From: Alphaproteobacteria bacterium
GTDB taxonomy: Bacteria > Pseudomonadota > Alphaproteobacteria > Micropepsales > Micropepsaceae
NCBI GenBank assembly: GCA_947473475.1
Contig: CANJBZ010000038.1
Location: 1 to 37,571 of the forward strand
Direction of reading: 5' to 3'
DNA: 37,571 nt
Position numbers and translations under genes: made by a program. Below are positions 25,757 through 37,571 of this stretch, piece after piece. Position 1 is the stretch's first letter. The number at the start of each line of letters is the position of its first letter. The notes under the pieces were generated by a model, which saw only the letters and a program-made list of their open reading frames with translations, made no database searches and was not told the origin of the DNA.

Positions 25757-26638
25757 CTAGAAATCCGGCTTGGACGCCTGCGGGACGTTGGTGTCCTTAG
25801 CGGCATAATATTCGTGGACGTTCTCGGCGCAGACGTTCTCCACCCATTCGCCGGACGCATGCAGATAGGTCGCCAAGCCCGACCACGGCTGGACAAACAT
25901 GGTCTTGTCTTCGACGGTGAACCGCACTTGCAGGCCGGCCCCTTTGTAATCACGGTCCACGATGGCGCCTTGCTCCGTGGCGGGCGGGCCGTATTCCCGC
26001 AAGGCGCGGTCCTGCGCCGCGCGCGCCTCGGCGTAATCGATCATCCGGTAGCGTTCGATGACGTGTAGCGCGCTGCTGAAGGGTGTGCCGAACTGGTCCA
26101 GAACGGCAGCCGGGCCCGCGACGACGCCCACCGTGTCGATCACCAGCGTGTCCCCTTCGTAATGGCCGATGGAATCACCGTGCCATGTCGGCGGGACCCG
26201 CCCCGGATGCGTTCCGTTCAAACGCACATGGCGGACCTGATGATCCTGCATGTAGAGCATGAGCACTTCATTCTTGGTCTGCAGAATCTCCATGCCTTGG
26301 ACACGAAAAATATAGGGGGCCACCATCGGCAGGCACTGGTTGGAGGGATTTAAATAATCCTCTCCGCGCGCCGTCACGTCGCTGCGCTCTTTGATCAATT
26401 GCGCCGCGGCCGGTGTGAGGTTCGGATTGTTGTAGTCGCCGACGGCCTTGCTTTGATTGGAGGTGCCGTCGGGCTTGCGGCTGAGATTGCGCGTGGGGCC
26501 AAGGCCGCTTTCGGGAAATTCAAGCCCGAACACCGCTCGCGACCAGAAGCCGGAGAAATTGGGAACGGAGTCTGCTGCGCGGGGTGAGCCGCAAAAGACC
26601 AATAGGCTGAGTGCAAAAACACAGGAATAGCTGCGCAT
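25757..26638 (-). CDS. Exported uncharacterised protein, FSG(F/I)W family, copy 1
   Basis: The 293-residue product has a signal peptide (about residues 1-21) and no domain I recognise. Clear shared blocks with the product of 29017-29934 are NFSGFW near 27-32, the NP-NQC-P motif, MLYMQDHQVRHVRLNGTHP, YEGDTLVIDTVG, FGTPFSSALHVIERY, VRFTVEDKTMF and the C-terminal VCAENVHEYY...PDF. This family is often annotated as hypothetical and looks secreted. It lies upstream of the MFS gene on the same strand with a 108-base gap and is divergent from the alpha/beta hydrolase. Confidence 0.75.
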   Translation of the reverse strand: MRSYSCVFALSLLVFCGSPRAADSVPNFSGFWSRAVFGLEFPESGLGPTRNLSRKPDGTSNQSKAVGDYNNPNLTPAAAQLIKERSDVTARGEDYLNPSNQCLPMVAPYIFRVQGMEILQTKNEVLMLYMQDHQVRHVRLNGTHPGRVPPTWHGDSIGHYEGDTLVIDTVGVVAGPAAVLDQFGTPFSSALHVIERYRMIDYAEARAAQDRALREYGPPATEQGAIVDRDYKGAGLQVRFTVEDKTMFVQPWSGLATYLHASGEWVENVCAENVHEYYAAKDTNVPQASKPDF

Positions 26639-29016: not shown

Positions 29017-29934
29017 ATGAGGCTCAAGACGGGATTGAAGCTGGCTGCATTGGCGGCGGTTGCAACGGTGTCTGCGTCCGTTCAGGCGGCGCCGGGCGGC
29101 GGTCCCCGGCCCGATTTTTCGGGCATCTGGGCGCATCCCTGGCTGCCGGGGTTTGAGGCGCTTCCTTCCGGTCCGACCGCACTGGTCAATCTTTCGCGCA
29201 CCCCGCAAGGGCAGAGCATCCAGACCCAACTGGTCGGCGATTATAAGAATCCGATTCTGAACCCCGCGGCGTCTGAAACCGTTCGTAAAATGGGCGAGCA
29301 GTCCAAATCGTTTTTCGGCTTCCACAATCCGCGCAACCAGTGCTGGCCGAACGGTATACCCTTCGTCCTGTCGGCCAACGGTATGCAGATATTCGACCGC
29401 GGCGATCATCTGACCATGATCTATCGCGTGGATCATCAGATGCGTACGGTGCGGATGAACGGGTCGCATCCCGCCAATGTCAGGCCATCCTATTACGGGG
29501 ACTCGGTCGGCCATTTTGAAGGGGACACGCTGGTGATTGACACGGTCGGCATCAAGCCCGGCCGTTTTGCGATGATCGATTGGTTCGGTACGCCGCAAAC
29601 GCCCGCGTTGCACGTGGTCGAACGCTATCAGCTCCTTACCTATGAACAGGCGCAGGAAGGCGTGAAGCGTGCGTACAAGGACAATGTGCTCCCGCAATTC
29701 AACAATCCGCCGGTGGTCGATTTCAATTCGCGAGGCAAATGGTTGCAGCTTCGCTTCACGGTCGACGATCCGACGGTTTTTACGGGTCCGTGGTCCGCGA
29801 CGGTGACCTATGGGCCGGCAGCGCGGGCCGTGGGACCGGAAACCTGGCCTGAGGATGTCTGCGCCGAAAATCCGCACAAATACGGCACGGAAGAAGATGT
29901 TCAACTGCCGACGGCGGCAGTCGCCGATTTCTGA
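29017..29934 (+). CDS. Exported uncharacterised protein, FSG(F/I)W family, copy 2
   Basis: The 305-residue product starts at ATG 29017 after AGGAGG (29006-29011) with a signal peptide (about residues 1-25, ending VQA-AP). It is a paralogue of the product of 25757-26638: DFSGIW near residue 34, NPRNQCWPNGIPFVL, HLTMIYRVDHQMRTVRMNGSHP, FEGDTLVIDTVGI, FGTPQTPALHVVERY, LRFTVDDPTVF and the C-terminal DVCAEN...ADF. No enzyme motif is recognised; the conserved Cys pair (NQC and CAEN) could form a disulphide. The two copies flank the two hydrolase genes. Confidence 0.75.
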   Translation: MRLKTGLKLAALAAVATVSASVQAAPGGGPRPDFSGIWAHPWLPGFEALPSGPTALVNLSRTPQGQSIQTQLVGDYKNPILNPAASETVRKMGEQSKSFFGFHNPRNQCWPNGIPFVLSANGMQIFDRGDHLTMIYRVDHQMRTVRMNGSHPANVRPSYYGDSVGHFEGDTLVIDTVGIKPGRFAMIDWFGTPQTPALHVVERYQLLTYEQAQEGVKRAYKDNVLPQFNNPPVVDFNSRGKWLQLRFTVDDPTVFTGPWSATVTYGPAARAVGPETWPEDVCAENPHKYGTEEDVQLPTAAVADF

Positions 29935-30094: not shown

Positions 30095-31924
30095 GTGCGG
30101 CTTGTCGTTCTTTGCGCGTTCCTATTGGGTTTGTGCTTCGCTTTTTCGGCGGCTGAAGCTGCCGATCCCCAGTCCTATACCGTGACGTTGGATTCGAGCG
30201 GGTCGTCGGCCGTCGACGACGTGGTTCGCAACAGCTCGCTTCTTGTGAGCTTGCGCGACTCCGCGCCCGTGCCGCCTTTCGGGCTTGTGACGCGCGCCAC
30301 GGGCGATATCGAGCGTCTGAAAACCGCCATCAATAGCTTCGGCTACTACCAGCCTATGATTGCGATCACCATCGCCGGGCGCGATGTGAACGATCCGGGT
30401 CTGTCGCAAGTGTTGGACGAGACACCGGCGGGCGTGGCGGTTCCGGTGCATGTCGCGATCGCGGCTGGGCCGCTCTATCGCCTCGGCCGCATTTCGGTCG
30501 AGGGCGCGATCCCGGCGGGGGCCGAAGAACAGATTAAGCTCAGTGCGGGAGATGCGGCGGTCGCCTCGGACGTGATCGCGGCACAGGCGCGGCTGCTGAC
30601 CGCGTTGCAGGAGCAAGGGTACGCCTTTGCCGACGTCCACCAGCCCATCGCCTATGCCGACGATGAGGCCCATACGCTCGATATCGTCTTTGAGACCGAA
30701 GTGGGACCGAAAGCCGACATTGGTGCGATCCGGTTTGAGGGTCTTAAGCAGGTGGATGCCTCATTCGCGCAGCACGCCTTCACGGTGAAGTCCGGCGATT
30801 TGTACCAGCCTACCGTGATTGAGAGAGCGCGACTGGCTCTGCTGCAAACCGGGGTGTTCAGCGGCGTCAGCATCACGCCGGGCGAGAAGCCCAACAACGG
30901 CCGCGTCGATCTCGTCATTCAGGTCGAGGAACGGCCGCCCCACGCGGTCAGCGTCGCAGGGACGTATTCGACCGATCTCGGTGTCAGCCTCTCGGGCACT
31001 TGGAGCCACCGCAATCTCTTCGGCAATGCAGAGCAGTTGAATCTGACCGCTGCCGGAACCGGATTGTGGGGAAACGCCACAGACGACATCGGCTACCAAT
31101 TTGCCGCTCAGTTCATAAAGCCAATGTTCTTGCGCGACGACCAGACGCTGGAAACAAACCTATCGGCGGTGAAGCAGGATTTGCGCGCCTTCACGCAGCG
31201 CGCGGAAACGCTGGCGGGCCTTTTGCGGCGCAAATTCTCGCCGCAATGGACCGGCACGGCGGGCGCATCGCTGGCACATGACGTGGTGTCGCAGAAAAGC
31301 GTGGATCGCAAATACCAGCTCTTCAGCACGCCGGTCGCAGCCAGCTATGACAGCACGGGCCTCACCAATCCGATCTCCGATGCGGTGCGTGGGTCACGCG
31401 CGCTGCTGCAGATTACTCCTGCGCTGGCTTTCGGAAATGTGGTGTCGAATTTCTTCATCTTTCAGGCAAGCGGGTCCACCTATTTCGATCTTGCCGGTAA
31501 CGGCAATACGGTTCTCGCCTTGCGCGGGACCGTCGCAAACGTGATCGGCGCTTCGAATTTCGACCTGCCGCCGGATCAAAGATTGTATGCCGGCGGAAGC
31601 GGAACGGTGCGCGGTTACAAATATCAGACGATTGGCCCGCTGTTTGCCGACGGCGATCCCATCGGAGGAACCGCGCTGGATGCGGTTACCGTCGAGCTGC
31701 GGCAGCGTGTTTACGGTAATTACGGTGTGGTTGCGTTTGTCGATGCCGGGCAGGCGAGCGCCGAGAAGGTGCCGTTCACCGGCACGCTGCGTACCGGCGT
31801 TGGAGCCGGGGTTCGCTACTACAGTCCGATCGGTGTCGTGCGCGCCGATTTCGCGGTCCCGTTGAAACGGCCAGCGAGCGGTGATGCATTCGAAATCTAC
31901 ATCGGACTGGGACAGGCGTTCTGA
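30095..31924 (+). CDS. tamA: Outer-membrane translocation and assembly protein TamA
   Basis: The 609-residue product starts at GTG 30095, after GAAGGG (30078-30083), with a signal peptide (about residues 1-22). Three POTRA repeats occupy roughly 28-270 (e.g. GPLYRLGRISVEGAIP, LTALQEQGYAFADVH, IGAIRFEGLKQVD with GDLYQPTVIERARLALLQTGVFSGV). The BamA-like barrel follows, with the motif GGSGTVRGYKYQTIGP and a final aromatic residue (IGLGQAF). TamA acts with TamB in delivering outer-membrane proteins and lipids. Its stop overlaps the tamB ATG by one base (TGATG), so the two are coupled. Confidence 0.93.
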   Translation: MRLVVLCAFLLGLCFAFSAAEAADPQSYTVTLDSSGSSAVDDVVRNSSLLVSLRDSAPVPPFGLVTRATGDIERLKTAINSFGYYQPMIAITIAGRDVNDPGLSQVLDETPAGVAVPVHVAIAAGPLYRLGRISVEGAIPAGAEEQIKLSAGDAAVASDVIAAQARLLTALQEQGYAFADVHQPIAYADDEAHTLDIVFETEVGPKADIGAIRFEGLKQVDASFAQHAFTVKSGDLYQPTVIERARLALLQTGVFSGVSITPGEKPNNGRVDLVIQVEERPPHAVSVAGTYSTDLGVSLSGTWSHRNLFGNAEQLNLTAAGTGLWGNATDDIGYQFAAQFIKPMFLRDDQTLETNLSAVKQDLRAFTQRAETLAGLLRRKFSPQWTGTAGASLAHDVVSQKSVDRKYQLFSTPVAASYDSTGLTNPISDAVRGSRALLQITPALAFGNVVSNFFIFQASGSTYFDLAGNGNTVLALRGTVANVIGASNFDLPPDQRLYAGGSGTVRGYKYQTIGPLFADGDPIGGTALDAVTVELRQRVYGNYGVVAFVDAGQASAEKVPFTGTLRTGVGAGVRYYSPIGVVRADFAVPLKRPASGDAFEIYIGLGQAF

Positions 31925-34900
31925 TGCGCAAACTGGTGCGAACCGTTGTCAGGGTCTTAGCCGTCTCATTGGCGCTGGTTGCAGCTGTCGTTGTGCTTGG
32001 TGCGCTGTTCGTCAACACGCAATTTGGAGCCGGCAACGTCGCCTCTCTCGTAGGCAGGCTCACGGATGGGCGTGTTTCCATTGAGGGGTTGAGCGGCCGC
32101 GTTCCCGATCATCTGCGGGCGCGCCATTTCGAATTGCGCGATGCCCAAGGCGTATGGCTGACGCTCGACGACGTGGTGCTGGATTGGAATCCGCTTCCGC
32201 TGTTGCGGAATCGCTTTGAAATTTACCGTGTCGAGGCTGCACGCGCGCACGTTCTGCGATTGCCGGTCCGGGACGATTCCGGTCCAAGCTATGTCTTCGA
32301 CATTGGAATGCTTCGCATACCAATGATCGAAACGGATGCCCCGGTTAGCGGCAGGCCCGCGGTCCTCAGCGTGCAGGGCTCGCTCCGTTACGCGGGCCTG
32401 ATGGACTGGTCGGCGGACTTGAAAGCGACACGCCTCGATGAGCCTGGCTCCTATCGCATTGCCGGACAGTTCGTGGATGGAATCGCCGATGGTTTGGCGA
32501 GCCTGCAAGAGAGACCTCTTGGGCTTGTCGGCGGGCTTCTTGGCCTGAGCGATATCGGCCCAATTTCTGCCGAAGCACACGCATCCCGCGGCGCCGCGAC
32601 CAATGCGATGTCGTTCCAAGTGCATGCCGGACCTCTTGCGGCGACGGGCAGCGGGACCATCGACGTCGCGCGGCGGATTGCGGACATGGATTTTAGGGCC
32701 GATGCGCCGGCCATGGAACTGCGTCCCGATCTGAGATGGCAAAGTCTTGCCGCAGAGGGTCACTTCCATGGGCCTTTCGTCCGGCCCGATGTTACGGCCA
32801 ATGTCGATGTGCGCGCGCTCACGGCCTACGGCACGAGCGTCGGTCAAATCGTGGCGAAGGTGCAGGGCAATACCGGCGATGTAAGATTTTCGGGCAGCGC
32901 GTCCGGACTCATGCTCCCGGGCGATCAGGGGCAGCTTTTCGCCCGCCAACCGGTCGGGCTGGAGGGAAGCATCGATCTTGCGGCCGCCCGTCACCCGTTC
33001 AACGTCACGGTCACCCATCCGCTGGTGACCATCGGCGCGGCCGGCGAAGCGGCTACGCCGGTCAGCGCGCGACTGTCCATCGAAGCGCGCGATCTGGCGC
33101 CGTTTGCGCGTCTTGAGGACATCGATCTGGGCGGCCGTGCAAAAATCGATGTCGATCTGAATTCCTCCGCGAATGCGTACAGCATTGCCGCACGCGGGAC
33201 GATCGATCTGCTGGGCGAGTCGGTACTCGCGCGTCTGACGGGACGCAATGCAACGTTTCGCTCGACGGTCGCCATCTCCGGAACGACAGCTACAATTACC
33301 GATGCGCGGTTCGACGCGGCCAAACTGACGGCGCGGTTGTCTGGAAGTTTCCGCAACGGAATGGTGGATCTGCATTCCTCCGCACGGCTGCCCGATGTTT
33401 CGGTGCTGGCGCCGCGATTGAGGGGCGATTTGGAATTCAACCTCGATGCGCTGGGGCCGCTGGAAGATGCGCGCCTATCGGCAAGGGGGAGAGGCAATCT
33501 TGGAACGGACGGATTCCCACAGCAGGAGCTAACTCTCACGGCAGAGGCAAAAGGTCTGCCGATGCCGCAATCGGGCAATTTCGCCGTGGCGGGACGTTTT
33601 GCCGATGCCCCGGTAAGGGTCATTGGCGACATCACGCATTCGGACAAGCAGGTGTTTCTCGTCAGCTTGAAACAGGCCGAATGGAAAACGCTGCGGGCGT
33701 CCGCGTCCATTTCGGTGCCCAACGCGGCGCCGGTTACCGGCGAAGGGACGGTCTCCGTCGCCAATCTCAGGGACCTGTCCGCCCTTCTTGCGATACCGTT
33801 GGAGGGCAGCTTGCAGGCGCGTGTTGCATTCACCGACCGTAATAATACGACGAATGCGGCCATTTCCGCACAGGCTGCCAATATTTCTTATGATGGCATC
33901 ACTGCCCAGACGTTGACCGTCGATGGAGCCGTCGTCGATCCATTCGGGAATCTTTCTCTCGATCTGTATGCCGCGGCGCGCGGTATGAAGGCGGCGGGCT
34001 TTTTCGGGAACGTAAACGCGGGCCTGAAAGGTATGCTGGATGCGCTGGCGGTTCGCCTCGATGCCGATGTGATGGATGGCGACGGAAATCCCGCTGAGAT
34101 CGCGGGAGCAGCTACCGCTAACATTCGCGACAAATACGTGCGCTTGCTTTCGCTGCACGCCAAATACCGCGACGAGAGTGTGTCGCTGACCGAGCCCGCG
34201 CGGATAGACTTTAGGGATGGTTTGGCCGTCGATCGTCTTGTGCTGGCTACGGCCGGGGGCAGGGTTTCCGTCGCCGGACGCTTTACGCCTACGCTCGCCA
34301 CGACCATCACGGCACAGAATATTTCCGCGGCTGCTTTCACACCGTTTGTCCCGGAATGGAAGCCGCAAGGCGTCCTGTCAGGCTCTGCGGAGTTGAGCGG
34401 AACGCTGGCCACGCCACGCGGCACGATCATCCTGGAAGGAAAAGGTCTGCGAAGCCCTGTCGTTCCCGGTGCGATCAGTAGCGGCGATTTGACGGCACGT
34501 GCCGACCTTGGCGGAGACACCGCGCGCATCGAGGCCCAACTCGCTGCCGGAACCGCGATCCGTATCAATGTGACGGGGTCCGTCCCCATGGATATGCAGC
34601 GCGAAATGGCGCTTCGCGTAACGGGCACGACAGACCTGTCGGTTTTCAACGCGGTCCTTTCCGCCGAGGGCCGCAAAGTGTTGGGGCGGGTCAGTCTCGA
34701 TACATCCGTGAACGGAACGTTTGGTGCGCCGCGCATCGCCGGGCATGCTTCATTGGCCGGAGGAGAGGTGCAGGACATTCCGCACGGATTTCGCGTTCAC
34801 GACATCGCCGCCGAGGTTGACAGCGATGGCGTCACGGCGCGGCTGACCAAACTCTCGGGGATTGCCGGCGATGGCGCCATCGGCGGAACGGGGACGATGA

Positions 34901-35922
34901 CGTTTGGCGAATGCCTGCCTATCGATCTCGTCATAACCGCGCGCAAAGCCCGCCCCTTAGTGAGCGACCGGTTTGCCGGAATAGTCGACTCCGATCTACG
35001 TCTGACAGGAGACGTGCAGGATCAGCTCACCGTTTCGGGCAATCTGAACATCACGCGCGGCGAGATCAATTTGCCGGACACGTATCCGCAGAGCGTCGTG
35101 GTCTTGGACGTGAGGCGCCGGGGCCAAGCGCCATTACCGCCACAACCCGCGCGCAAGCCGCTGCGGTTGAATTTAAGGGTTACGAGTCCGGGGCAAGTAT
35201 TCGTGCGCGGCCGCGGCATCGAGGCCGAGGTTCAAGGTGAAATGCGCATCACAGGAACGACCGAATACCCGCAGGTGGGCGGCGGATTGGATCTCCGGCG
35301 CGGGACCTTCAGCGTTGCCGGTCAGACGCTGAATTTCACGCGCGGACGCGTATCGTTCACGGGCGCCAGCCTTCGCAACGAAATCAATCCCTCGCTCGAC
35401 CTTGTGGCCGAGAAGCAGTCGGGCAATATCGATGTCCAACTCGCCGTGACGGGCGCCGCGTCCGAACCGCGGGTTCAGCTTTCAAGTGCGCCATCTCTCC
35501 CCCAGGACGAAATCCTGGCGGCGCTTTTGTTTCAGCAGACGACGGCGCAGTTGAGCCCAATTCAGCTGGCGGAAATTGCACGGGCTGCGCTTTCGTTGAC
35601 GGATTCAGGGCGCGGGCTGGATCCCATCGGCACTGTTCGCAAGGGGCTTGGACTCGATCGCCTCGCCGTCGGCAGTGCCGGCACGACCGGCACCGACACC
35701 CAGACGACCGTGACCGCGGGAAAGTACGTGGCGCGCAATATCTATCTGGGCGCCACCCAAGGTGTCGGCGGGGGTACGCAAGCCGAAGTTCAGGTCGACC
35801 TCTCGCGCAATCTCAAAGCCATCGGGACGGTGAACGCCGGACTTCCGGAGAGTACTACGCAGCAAGCCCGGCAGCATGGGACGAGTACGAGTTTCGGCCT
35901 GCGCTACCAGTTCGAATATTGA
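31924..35922 (+). CDS. tamB: Translocation and assembly protein TamB
   Basis: The 1332-residue product has an N-terminal inner-membrane anchor (about residues 9-31, VLAVSLALVAAVVVLGALF). A long periplasmic stretch of repetitive beta-strand sequence follows, then the C-terminal TamB/DUF490 domain from about residue 950 (GEINLPDTYPQSVVVLDVRRR, LDLRRGTFSVAGQTLNFTRGRVSF, LPQDEILAALLFQQTTAQLSP) ending FGLRYQFEY. TamB is thought to form a hydrophobic groove bridging inner and outer membranes. Order and coupling with tamA are standard. Confidence 0.93.
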   Translation: MRKLVRTVVRVLAVSLALVAAVVVLGALFVNTQFGAGNVASLVGRLTDGRVSIEGLSGRVPDHLRARHFELRDAQGVWLTLDDVVLDWNPLPLLRNRFEIYRVEAARAHVLRLPVRDDSGPSYVFDIGMLRIPMIETDAPVSGRPAVLSVQGSLRYAGLMDWSADLKATRLDEPGSYRIAGQFVDGIADGLASLQERPLGLVGGLLGLSDIGPISAEAHASRGAATNAMSFQVHAGPLAATGSGTIDVARRIADMDFRADAPAMELRPDLRWQSLAAEGHFHGPFVRPDVTANVDVRALTAYGTSVGQIVAKVQGNTGDVRFSGSASGLMLPGDQGQLFARQPVGLEGSIDLAAARHPFNVTVTHPLVTIGAAGEAATPVSARLSIEARDLAPFARLEDIDLGGRAKIDVDLNSSANAYSIAARGTIDLLGESVLARLTGRNATFRSTVAISGTTATITDARFDAAKLTARLSGSFRNGMVDLHSSARLPDVSVLAPRLRGDLEFNLDALGPLEDARLSARGRGNLGTDGFPQQELTLTAEAKGLPMPQSGNFAVAGRFADAPVRVIGDITHSDKQVFLVSLKQAEWKTLRASASISVPNAAPVTGEGTVSVANLRDLSALLAIPLEGSLQARVAFTDRNNTTNAAISAQAANISYDGITAQTLTVDGAVVDPFGNLSLDLYAAARGMKAAGFFGNVNAGLKGMLDALAVRLDADVMDGDGNPAEIAGAATANIRDKYVRLLSLHAKYRDESVSLTEPARIDFRDGLAVDRLVLATAGGRVSVAGRFTPTLATTITAQNISAAAFTPFVPEWKPQGVLSGSAELSGTLATPRGTIILEGKGLRSPVVPGAISSGDLTARADLGGDTARIEAQLAAGTAIRINVTGSVPMDMQREMALRVTGTTDLSVFNAVLSAEGRKVLGRVSLDTSVNGTFGAPRIAGHASLAGGEVQDIPHGFRVHDIAAEVDSDGVTARLTKLSGIAGDGAIGGTGTMTFGECLPIDLVITARKARPLVSDRFAGIVDSDLRLTGDVQDQLTVSGNLNITRGEINLPDTYPQSVVVLDVRRRGQAPLPPQPARKPLRLNLRVTSPGQVFVRGRGIEAEVQGEMRITGTTEYPQVGGGLDLRRGTFSVAGQTLNFTRGRVSFTGASLRNEINPSLDLVAEKQSGNIDVQLAVTGAASEPRVQLSSAPSLPQDEILAALLFQQTTAQLSPIQLAEIARAALSLTDSGRGLDPIGTVRKGLGLDRLAVGSAGTTGTDTQTTVTAGKYVARNIYLGATQGVGGGTQAEVQVDLSRNLKAIGTVNAGLPESTTQQARQHGTSTSFGLRYQFEY

Positions 35923-35943: not shown

Positions 35944-37296
35944 TCAAAACGCAACCCAGGTGAACAGCCGGAAAGTGTTGTTGTCAGAAGCATTATGGCC
36001 TTGGCCGTCGTAATCTTTCGTTGCGCCATTCAGCTCTGTGTACAGCGTATATTGAGCCCCGACCCGCAGATTAAAGCGCCGTCCCAAGGGTGATACGTCG
36101 GCGCCCCAAGGTGTGTAATCGAGTTGAAATATGACGCCCGTGCTGTTCGGGGTCATTGTTCTATTGTCCGCGTAAAACAAGGAATCGGTTGAACCCCAAA
36201 TATGAAAGGGGCTGACCGTCACGCCGATCATGTTGCGCCAGTAATAAGACGCGTCGATTTGCGTCTCCTGCAGTGTGTTGTGACGATTGGCTGCCTCATT
36301 CAGCGCCAGCGATGCGGCGAGGTTCTGCGCTTCATGGGTGTAGCGCGCGTCCACGGAAACCGTAACGTCGCTCAGCCCCGTATATTGCCAGCTCGCATCG
36401 ATGCCCAAATCGCGGAACGTGTCGCCGCCTGCAAGCCTGTTTCCGCCGGGATAGGATTTTGGAAAGAACGCAAAGGCGCCGATTTCAAAATTTTGGACGC
36501 CTAAGTCCTTCGTATAAGCAACACGCGCATAGGGGGCGGCGCCTTTCATCATGGTGTCCCCATCGTTGATATCGACGCCCATAGCACTCAGAAATTTCTT
36601 ACCTGGGGTCCAATAAAGCCCCGCCTCCGCGTAGATGGCGTGATTCCACATCATGTAGACGCTGGAGCCCAGAACGCGTTGTGCGAATGCTTCCGCGATC
36701 ATGGGGGCGGCGGCTGGTGATGGCGCGAGGCTTGAGGCCGTAAAGGGGAAACCCCATGACGGCAGTGTATTCCAGGCATCCTGCACGCCCGGCGAATTGT
36801 TGAGGTCCACGCCGATGAGGACGTCCGTGCCGCTTATGGTCGTTTGCTTGGCCGCGCGAAGATCCAGTTGGTCCCATGCGAAGGCACGTCCAATGCCATC
36901 GTAGGTAAACTGCCCAAATGCCCCGAAATATTGGCCAACACCGCCGGCGACAAAGACGCTGATCTGGTCCAAGGCGAGATTGTTATTCGTGTCGTAATGC
37001 GGAGGAGCCGCGTCCTGGTCCTTGCGCGTGCTCACGTTGGACGCGATGGCCATTGCCGCCAATGGATTGGTGAAGCCCGTGCGTGCGCGCAACGTATAAC
37101 CCCCGAGCTTAAATTCGCGCCCGAATTGCGTGAGATGCGGACCCAAGCCGCCGACATGACACGCGCTGCACCGCTGCCCGGTCTGTTCGGCGAAGCTGGG
37201 AACGGCCTCGGCGCCAAGCGGAGCAAAACCTGCAATGAGCGCCAAAAGGACAAGCGCAGCCTTGAGTGTCTTATGAACGGAGATATGGCGAGTCAT
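35944..37296 (-). CDS. Fused monohaem cytochrome c-outer-membrane porin, Cyc2-like
   Basis: The 450-residue product has a signal peptide (about residues 1-31), then one CXXCH haem-c site, Cys43-Ser-Ala-Cys46-His47. The flanking pattern PSFAEQTGQRCSACH and FGREFKLGGYTLR is typical of fused cytochrome-porins. From about residue 75 it has amphipathic strands with aromatic girdles (e.g. FGAFGQFTYDGIGRAFAW, YAEAGLYWTPGKKFLSAMGV, VGAQYTLYTELNG) and ends with Phe, as outer-membrane barrels do. This is the architecture of Cyc2, the iron-oxidising outer-membrane cytochrome. Whether this one oxidises iron cannot be read from sequence. No other haem protein is nearby. It is convergent with tamB. Confidence 0.75.
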   Translation of the reverse strand: MTRHISVHKTLKAALVLLALIAGFAPLGAEAVPSFAEQTGQRCSACHVGGLGPHLTQFGREFKLGGYTLRARTGFTNPLAAMAIASNVSTRKDQDAAPPHYDTNNNLALDQISVFVAGGVGQYFGAFGQFTYDGIGRAFAWDQLDLRAAKQTTISGTDVLIGVDLNNSPGVQDAWNTLPSWGFPFTASSLAPSPAAAPMIAEAFAQRVLGSSVYMMWNHAIYAEAGLYWTPGKKFLSAMGVDINDGDTMMKGAAPYARVAYTKDLGVQNFEIGAFAFFPKSYPGGNRLAGGDTFRDLGIDASWQYTGLSDVTVSVDARYTHEAQNLAASLALNEAANRHNTLQETQIDASYYWRNMIGVTVSPFHIWGSTDSLFYADNRTMTPNSTGVIFQLDYTPWGADVSPLGRRFNLRVGAQYTLYTELNGATKDYDGQGHNASDNNTFRLFTWVAF

Positions 37297-37424
37297 ACGG
37301 AGTGCGGACTCCTCATTAATTGGTTTTGAGATGAAAAATCAAAATTGAACACAGCAGGAATTCACGGCATGGAGAGCTGCGGACCATCCGCCGTCATTGG
37401 AAAAATTTCTTTACATGGGTTTTA

Positions 37425-37571
37425 GGGCGTGTCGTCATTTAAGGGATTCGTAAATCAGTAAAAGTGTGATTCATAGGGAGCTTCCAGAAGGAGGCTTGCG
37501 ATGGAACGCCATGCGTTGCGCGACGATCAATTCGCCCGGATTGAAAAATTCCTTCCGGGTCGCCCCGGCAC
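37425..37571 (+). mobile_element. Left end of an IS5-family insertion sequence (cut by the window)
   Basis: A possible left terminal inverted repeat starts at GGGCGTGTCGTCATTTAA (37425), directly after TTTA, and the transposase start lies 76 bases on. The right end is beyond the window, so neither the inverted repeat nor the target duplication can be confirmed. It sits 129 bases upstream of the cytochrome-porin start and on the opposite strand. Confidence 0.5.
37501..37571 (+). CDS. IS5-family transposase, N-terminal end (partial)
   Basis: ATG 37501 follows a perfect AAGGAGG (37488-37494) at 6 bases. The 23 visible codons read MERHALRDDQFARIEKFLPG then RPG, the opening of transposases of the IS5 family (DUF4096-type N-terminal region, with the DDE domain further on). 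The rest lies outside the window. No frameshift is seen in this part, so the element may be intact. Confidence 0.75.
   Translation, partial: MERHALRDDQFARIEKFLPGRPG

Follow-up and report, generated by a model that had tools for sequence, protein, structure and literature searches.

The open reading frame at positions 35944-37296 (minus strand) of the window, the whole stretch of DNA analysed here (37,571 nucleotides, all of contig C38 of a 3.87 Mb genome that is 99% complete), encodes a divergent Cyc2-like fused cytochrome-porin and not a canonical Cyc2. The protein probably serves as a Cyc2-like electron conduit of the outer membrane, connected to a periplasmic class I cytochrome c. Its architecture, homology and strand count, and the linkage to class I cytochrome c in relatives, were established by computation.

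Gene and sequence motifs

The gene begins with ATG, contains no internal stop codon and encodes 450 amino acids. The only CXXCH of the protein is set in AVPSFAEQTGQRCSACHVGGLGPHL, with surroundings of the FGREFKLGGYTL context; the N-terminal part includes the stretch AVPSFAEQTGQRCSACHVGGLGPHLTQFGREFKLGGYTL, and the C-terminus reads ...LFTWVAF with Phe as the terminal residue. The features of the protein were assigned as follows.

35944..37296, minus strand: fused monohaem cytochrome c-porin (Cyc2-like), 450 aa (open reading frame, homologues, AlphaFold2 (AF2) model)
37207..37296, minus strand: predicted signal peptide, residues 1 to about 30 (hydrophobic N-terminus, model helix 7-23)
37180..37206, minus strand: Cyc2-like signature AVPSFAEQT, with Glu for the Arg of the published form AXPXFAR[Q/K][T/Y] (PMC8406198)
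37156..37170, minus strand: putative haem c attachment site CSACH, residues 43-47 (C43, C46 and H47 invariant in 74 homologues)
37132..37140, minus strand: PXL motif (PHL), residues 53-55 (L55 invariant, P53 nearly invariant)
35950..37062, minus strand: predicted 16-strand beta-barrel, residues 79-449 (AF2 pLDDT 92.3, pTM 0.87; OmpC/OmpF Z about 22)
36673..36798, minus strand: long loop between strands 5 and 6, residues 167-208 (strand order and conservation)

Searches of Pfam and NCBIfam returned no family model covering the cytochrome-porin, and a sequence search against solved structures gave chance-level matches only.

Predicted structure

Structure prediction was performed with AF2 using a 74-row homologue alignment, and gave a 16-strand barrel, from strand 79-90 to strand 441-449, at a mean pLDDT of 92.3 and a pTM of 0.87. 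In comparisons with Foldseek and VIA-align the model resembled general porins, with Z about 22 to OmpC/OmpF over about 300 residues. The longest loop of the model (167-208) lies between strands 5 and 6, which is also the position of the constriction loop L3 of general porins. Its conserved motif, NNSPGVQDAWN, begins at residue 166, and the NNxPxVxDxW pattern at the loop start was among the best-conserved stretches outside the haem site in the 74 homologues. With its signal peptide and barrel the protein would be located in the outer membrane, where the cytochrome part may act as a plug, as has been argued for a periplasmic plug in Cyc2 (PMC8406198).

An earlier note on this DNA had described a signal peptide, one CXXCH and a Phe-ending barrel in one 450-residue protein, the architecture of Cyc2, and had proposed a count of barrel strands by structure prediction and a profile search against Cyc2 as checks. 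The described elements are all present in the one chain, the predicted strand count is that of Cyc2, and the profile comparison below bears out the homology.

Relation to Cyc2

Cyc2 has been defined by AXPXFAR[Q/K][T/Y], CXXCH and PXL together with a 16-strand porin, with PXL about 4 residues past CXXCH and a length of at least 365 residues (PMC8406198). The window protein carries its single CXXCH near the N-terminus, a PXL 5 residues past it and a fused 16-strand porin in a chain of sufficient length; its AVPSFAEQT departs from the signature by Arg to Glu. With a haem domain and a porin in one chain homologous to Cyc2, it belongs to the broad Cyc2-like superfamily, and because the published signature was tested and did not match, it is not classed as Cyc2 proper.

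The family profile found proteins with AIPAFARQTGAACLSCHFQ in one family of the phylum (f64), one to three per listed genome; from their sequence and distribution these are probably Zetaproteobacteria. Profile-profile comparison of the cytochrome-porin family with these Cyc2-motif proteins gave a probability of 99.2 and E 2.3e-19 over 280 columns. The similarity peaked in the haem (cytochrome) region, and past its first part the barrel showed scant sequence similarity to them.

A 109-row tree was computed by quick search with SH-aLRT support and no bootstrap. The window protein fell within an alphaproteobacterial clade of 54 rows (SH-aLRT 100) that includes Micropepsaceae with Rhizomicrobium electricum, Caulobacteraceae and Sphingomonadaceae. 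The signature Arg was present in most rows outside this clade and in none of the 54 within it. The strict Cyc2 pattern was found in 31 of the 109 rows, all 11 Cyc2-motif proteins among them; an NNxPxVxDxW-like motif was present in none of these 11 and in 94 of the other 98 rows. Since sequences without PXFAR[Q/K][T/Y] were dropped from the reference Cyc2 tree (PMC8406198), the 54-row clade should be absent from that tree. 'Cyc2' is too narrow a label because the change from Arg to Glu is clade-wide; the Cyc2-type architecture described in the earlier note stands, as does homology, and the strict signature does not match. Microbial iron oxidation is searched for with Cyc2 motifs as a marker gene, and with an Arg-less homologous clade common in heterotrophic alphaproteobacteria, such searches either miss the clade or would overcall iron oxidation.

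Homologues and host range

Homologues were found in 15 of 61 sampled genomes, in 12 of the 39 near-complete genomes of the relatives sample and, phylum-wide, in 64/397 genomes, a spread far beyond chance. Scanning genome contigs yielded 374 relatives, the best 80 of which were retained for locus analysis. Hosts among these best 80 of 374 were Micropepsaceae (including R. electricum DSM 21034; Rhizomicrobium is a member of this family), Caulobacteraceae, Phenylobacterium, Novosphingobium, Sphingomonas, Robiginitomaculum, Solimonas, Pseudomonas and others. Plasmid-borne homologues were present in Polymorphobacter, Caballeronia, Paraburkholderia, Methylocystis, Acidiphilium, Ideonella and one A. 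ferrooxidans strain. Across the 74 aligned homologues 30 columns were invariant, C43, C46 and H47 among these; in the first 21 sequences these three and 31 more columns were invariant.

The hosts of the clade are widespread, little-studied alphaproteobacteria. The earlier note was right about the alphaproteobacterial host, which by kinship belongs to Micropepsaceae. It called extracellular electron transfer little studied in the lineage; Cyc2 homologues from alphaproteobacteria had already been published (PMC10654088, PMC10715153).

Partner cytochrome gene at related loci

Partner genes were counted at those 70 related loci, taken from the best 80 of 374, whose 3′ flank was 500 nt or longer. 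A class I cytochrome c lay directly 3′ on the same strand in 35 of these 70 loci, which, being related, are not independent trials; a dihaem cytochrome lay directly 3′ of the porin gene in 2/70, and the remaining 33 had no adjoining 3′ partner. As a control, a class I cytochrome c was found in 2 of 996 random windows elsewhere in the same loci. Class I cytochrome c was the only plausible neighbour gene family to recur widely in the best 80 of 374 loci. At three loci (L109, L111 and L116) the class I cytochrome gene was upstream of the porin gene instead. Plasmid homologues of Polymorphobacter, Caballeronia, Methylocystis, Ideonella and Acidiphilium had a c-type cytochrome gene directly downstream, and the Caballeronia plasmid locus also had a HiPIP gene upstream.

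In 30 loci the first start codon of the cytochrome frame lay 16 nt ahead of where the porin stop codon ends, an offset fixed because the conserved C-terminal codons ACA TGG contain an out-of-frame ATG. Several partner cytochromes had no other Met that would keep the signal peptide, and the same overlap pattern was seen in Solimonas and Pseudomonas loci. This constant offset suggests translational coupling. Since the fixed overlap names the likely periplasmic partner, the electron path is directly testable in culturable hosts (Rhizomicrobium electricum, Novosphingobium).

Separately, at the R. electricum locus (L112) two class I cytochrome c genes and one dihaem cytochrome open reading frame were located within about 3 kb downstream.

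Window neighbourhood

The surroundings of the gene in the window were as follows.

35944..35961, minus strand: site of the predicted partner-gene start in relatives (ACATGG there, ACCTGG here, no ATG)
31924..35922, plus strand: tamB, convergent, in the place of the partner gene and judged outside the system (PF04357, E 2.2e-51)
30095..31924, plus strand: tamA (Omp85/POTRA), judged outside the system (PF01103, E 4.4e-41)
37423..37571, plus strand: end of a multicopy insertion sequence, followed by the contig end (99-100% copies at six other places in the genome)

No cytochrome frame follows the porin stop codon in the window, where the overlap ATG is lost through the codons ACC TGG. The end of tamB lies about 22 bp from the cytochrome-porin gene. 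TamA and TamB both scored above the Pfam cut-off, and all six further copies of the insertion sequence begin at the same base; both neighbours named in the earlier note, tamAB and an insertion sequence end, were identified correctly. The edge of the element at 37423 is about 127 bp upstream of the cytochrome-porin start codon; the contig ends inside the element, and the upstream side of the gene is cut in the window by the element and the contig end. A functional link to tamAB was considered and dropped, as no tamAB-like neighbour family recurred in the best 80 of 374 loci, and the position of TamAB next door appears incidental.

Three similar-looking secreted proteins with PNFSGFW, PDFSGIW or PDFTGNW starts were also observed, at 25757-26638 (minus strand) and 29017-29934 (plus strand) of the window and at 813-1628 of L188; one of the three sits on the mtrAB-like contig.

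Other cytochromes of the source genome

The source genome contains 37 Cytochrom_C domain matches. On contig C14 an MtrA-like decahaem cytochrome with 10 CXXCH (258.7 bits, cut-off 192.2) adjoins an MtrB-like porin (262.5 bits, cut-off 240.05); the pair is at C14:50044-53303 (L213 6042-9655). This MtrAB-type conduit thus equips the genome with another route to extracellular electron transfer. MtrA-like matches were also obtained in G002 (same genus) and G027, and none (TIGR03508) in R. electricum. The statement of the earlier note that the protein stands without other cytochrome genes accordingly holds for the window, and does not hold for the genome or for the half of related loci with a class I cytochrome c. 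RuBisCO large chain was not found in the source genome, and RuBisCO-based lithoautotrophic life is therefore not indicated.

A cytochrome at C14:39072-39434 is 53% identical to a partner protein. It was considered as a displaced partner and rejected, as an ortholog is present in a same-genus genome with no detected porin gene, a cytochrome tree gave it no firm place, and no remnant of a porin 3′ end precedes the gene; it is a candidate acceptor only.

Further multihaem and secreted proteins were observed in the source genome. C42:1223-2917 (L214) is a 564-aa open reading frame with nine CXXCH and a weak decahaem-family match; a membrane segment and a haem site resembling class I form its start. 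Large paralogous secreted proteins with a IGGVVTGAKGPEAGVWVIAETKDLPTKYVKIVV start (L188 from 10821 onwards; L213 1348-3510, 3753-5930 and 9626-11923) lie in the region of the mtrAB-like genes; the three in L213 are 720-765 aa long and have one CXXCH each.

Proposed function and alternative explanations

In the proposed mechanism a short N-terminal c-type domain with one covalently attached haem would be joined to the 16-strand porin. A soluble redox partner outside the cell (ferrous iron, some other metal ion or a small shuttle) would reach the haem via the pore, passing the conserved strand 5-6 loop on its way, and electrons would be exchanged between this haem and the periplasmic class I cytochrome c. 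Many relatives have a small partner cytochrome that is probably expressed together with the cytochrome-porin, which therefore probably moves electrons across the outer membrane; this flow is inferred, as are any direction and substrate proposed for it. Published work shows iron oxidation by Mariprofundus Cyc2 (PMC8406198). As the window locus lacks the linked partner gene, another periplasmic cytochrome would have to serve in the source genome, for example C14:39072-39434. Against the conduit reading are the absent signature Arg, the absence of the partner gene from the window and from the 3′ flanks of the 33 relatives counted above, the scant similarity of the barrel past its first part to the Cyc2-motif proteins, and the lack of a detected RuBisCO large chain, by which growth as a RuBisCO-based lithoautotrophic iron oxidiser is not indicated. 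A broader reading is put forward tentatively: the Arg-less clade could form a two-gene conduit with an overlapping class I cytochrome c for extracellular electron transfer in common heterotrophs not regarded as iron oxidisers (Caulobacteraceae, Sphingomonadaceae, Micropepsaceae), and the loss of Arg could reflect a changed substrate or redox potential.

The protein might be a ferrous iron oxidase with the role that Cyc2 has in Mariprofundus or Acidithiobacillus, a possibility of some weight that we nevertheless rather doubt. Many hosts, such as Novosphingobium and Phenylobacterium, are not known as iron oxidisers, the clade is separate and has lost the signature Arg, and the source genome lacks a detected RuBisCO large chain. 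Homology to the Cyc2-motif set, the 16 strands, the same haem context and a cytochrome c partner, as with Cyc1, speak for iron oxidation, and related Acetobacteraceae proteins have been read as iron wires (PMC10715153), but the three Cyc2 clusters diverge strongly from one another, and their authors regard what distant homologues do as uncertain (PMC8406198). Electron export to an acceptor outside the cell or to an electrode, when the cell ferments or is short of oxygen, is unlikely; a single high-potential haem is ill-suited to reducing low-potential acceptors. In R. electricum two class I cytochrome c genes lie near the gene of a close homologue, and according to a title cited in PMC3408238 the species was isolated from a microbial fuel cell; in the papers searched this title was all that was found on its electron transfer mechanisms. 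Such isolation is no proof of current production, and the species gave no TIGR03508 match. The MtrAB-like conduit of the source genome and the acidithiobacilli Cyc2 isoforms tied to ferric iron reduction (PMC10715153) agree with outward flow.

The copy in the source genome could also be a decaying remnant that has lost its partner, with an insertion sequence just upstream. The overlap start codon is gone, tamB and the element lie close on either side, and no homologue was seen in four of six other same-genus genomes, several of them incomplete; yet the frame is open over 450 aa, all invariant motif residues and a high-confidence fold are kept, and intact homologues with no partner are common, which makes decay quite improbable. 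Least probable is a solute porin whose haem domain plugs the pore structurally or gates it by sensing redox state or oxygen, and is not an electron wire: the general porin fold, the conserved loop at the place of L3 and the half of loci with no adjacent redox partner fit such a porin, but the strong class I cytochrome c linkage and the c-type cytochrome neighbours in distant relatives argue against it.

Comparison with known systems

Cyc2 proteins (Mariprofundus ferrooxydans Cyc2PV-1, Acidithiobacillus ferrooxidans Cyc2 and Leptospirillum Cyt572) share with the window protein the signal peptide, the N-terminal AXPXFAxQT...CXXCH...PXL with a single CXXCH and the 16-strand barrel. They differ from it in the signature Arg, which is Glu in the window protein and never Arg in its clade, and the conserved NNxPxVxDxW loop of its family has no counterpart in the compared Cyc2-motif set. 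The Cyc2 homologues of Acetobacteraceae (PMC10715153) are of the same kind, fused cytochrome-porins of alphaproteobacteria whose genes are linked to one for a c-type cytochrome, and their cyc2-adjacent cytochrome genes had been noted in that study. They adjoin a mono- or dihaem cytochrome c, whereas the partner gene is missing in the window, and in the 109-row tree the Acetobacteraceae proteins (L169 and the Acidiphilium plasmids) are outside the clade of the window protein.

General 16-strand porins (OmpF, OmpC and Omp32) have the barrel fold and the long strand 5-6 loop in common with the cytochrome-porin, but have no cytochrome domain and are about 10% identical to it in sequence. MtrAB, MtoAB and PioAB resemble it as electron conduits through an outer-membrane barrel; they consist of two proteins with ten haems and a larger barrel (for MtrAB/PioAB, a separate decahaem cytochrome, TIGR03508, and a large porin, TIGR03509), whereas the cytochrome-porin falls outside that class as one chain with one haem.
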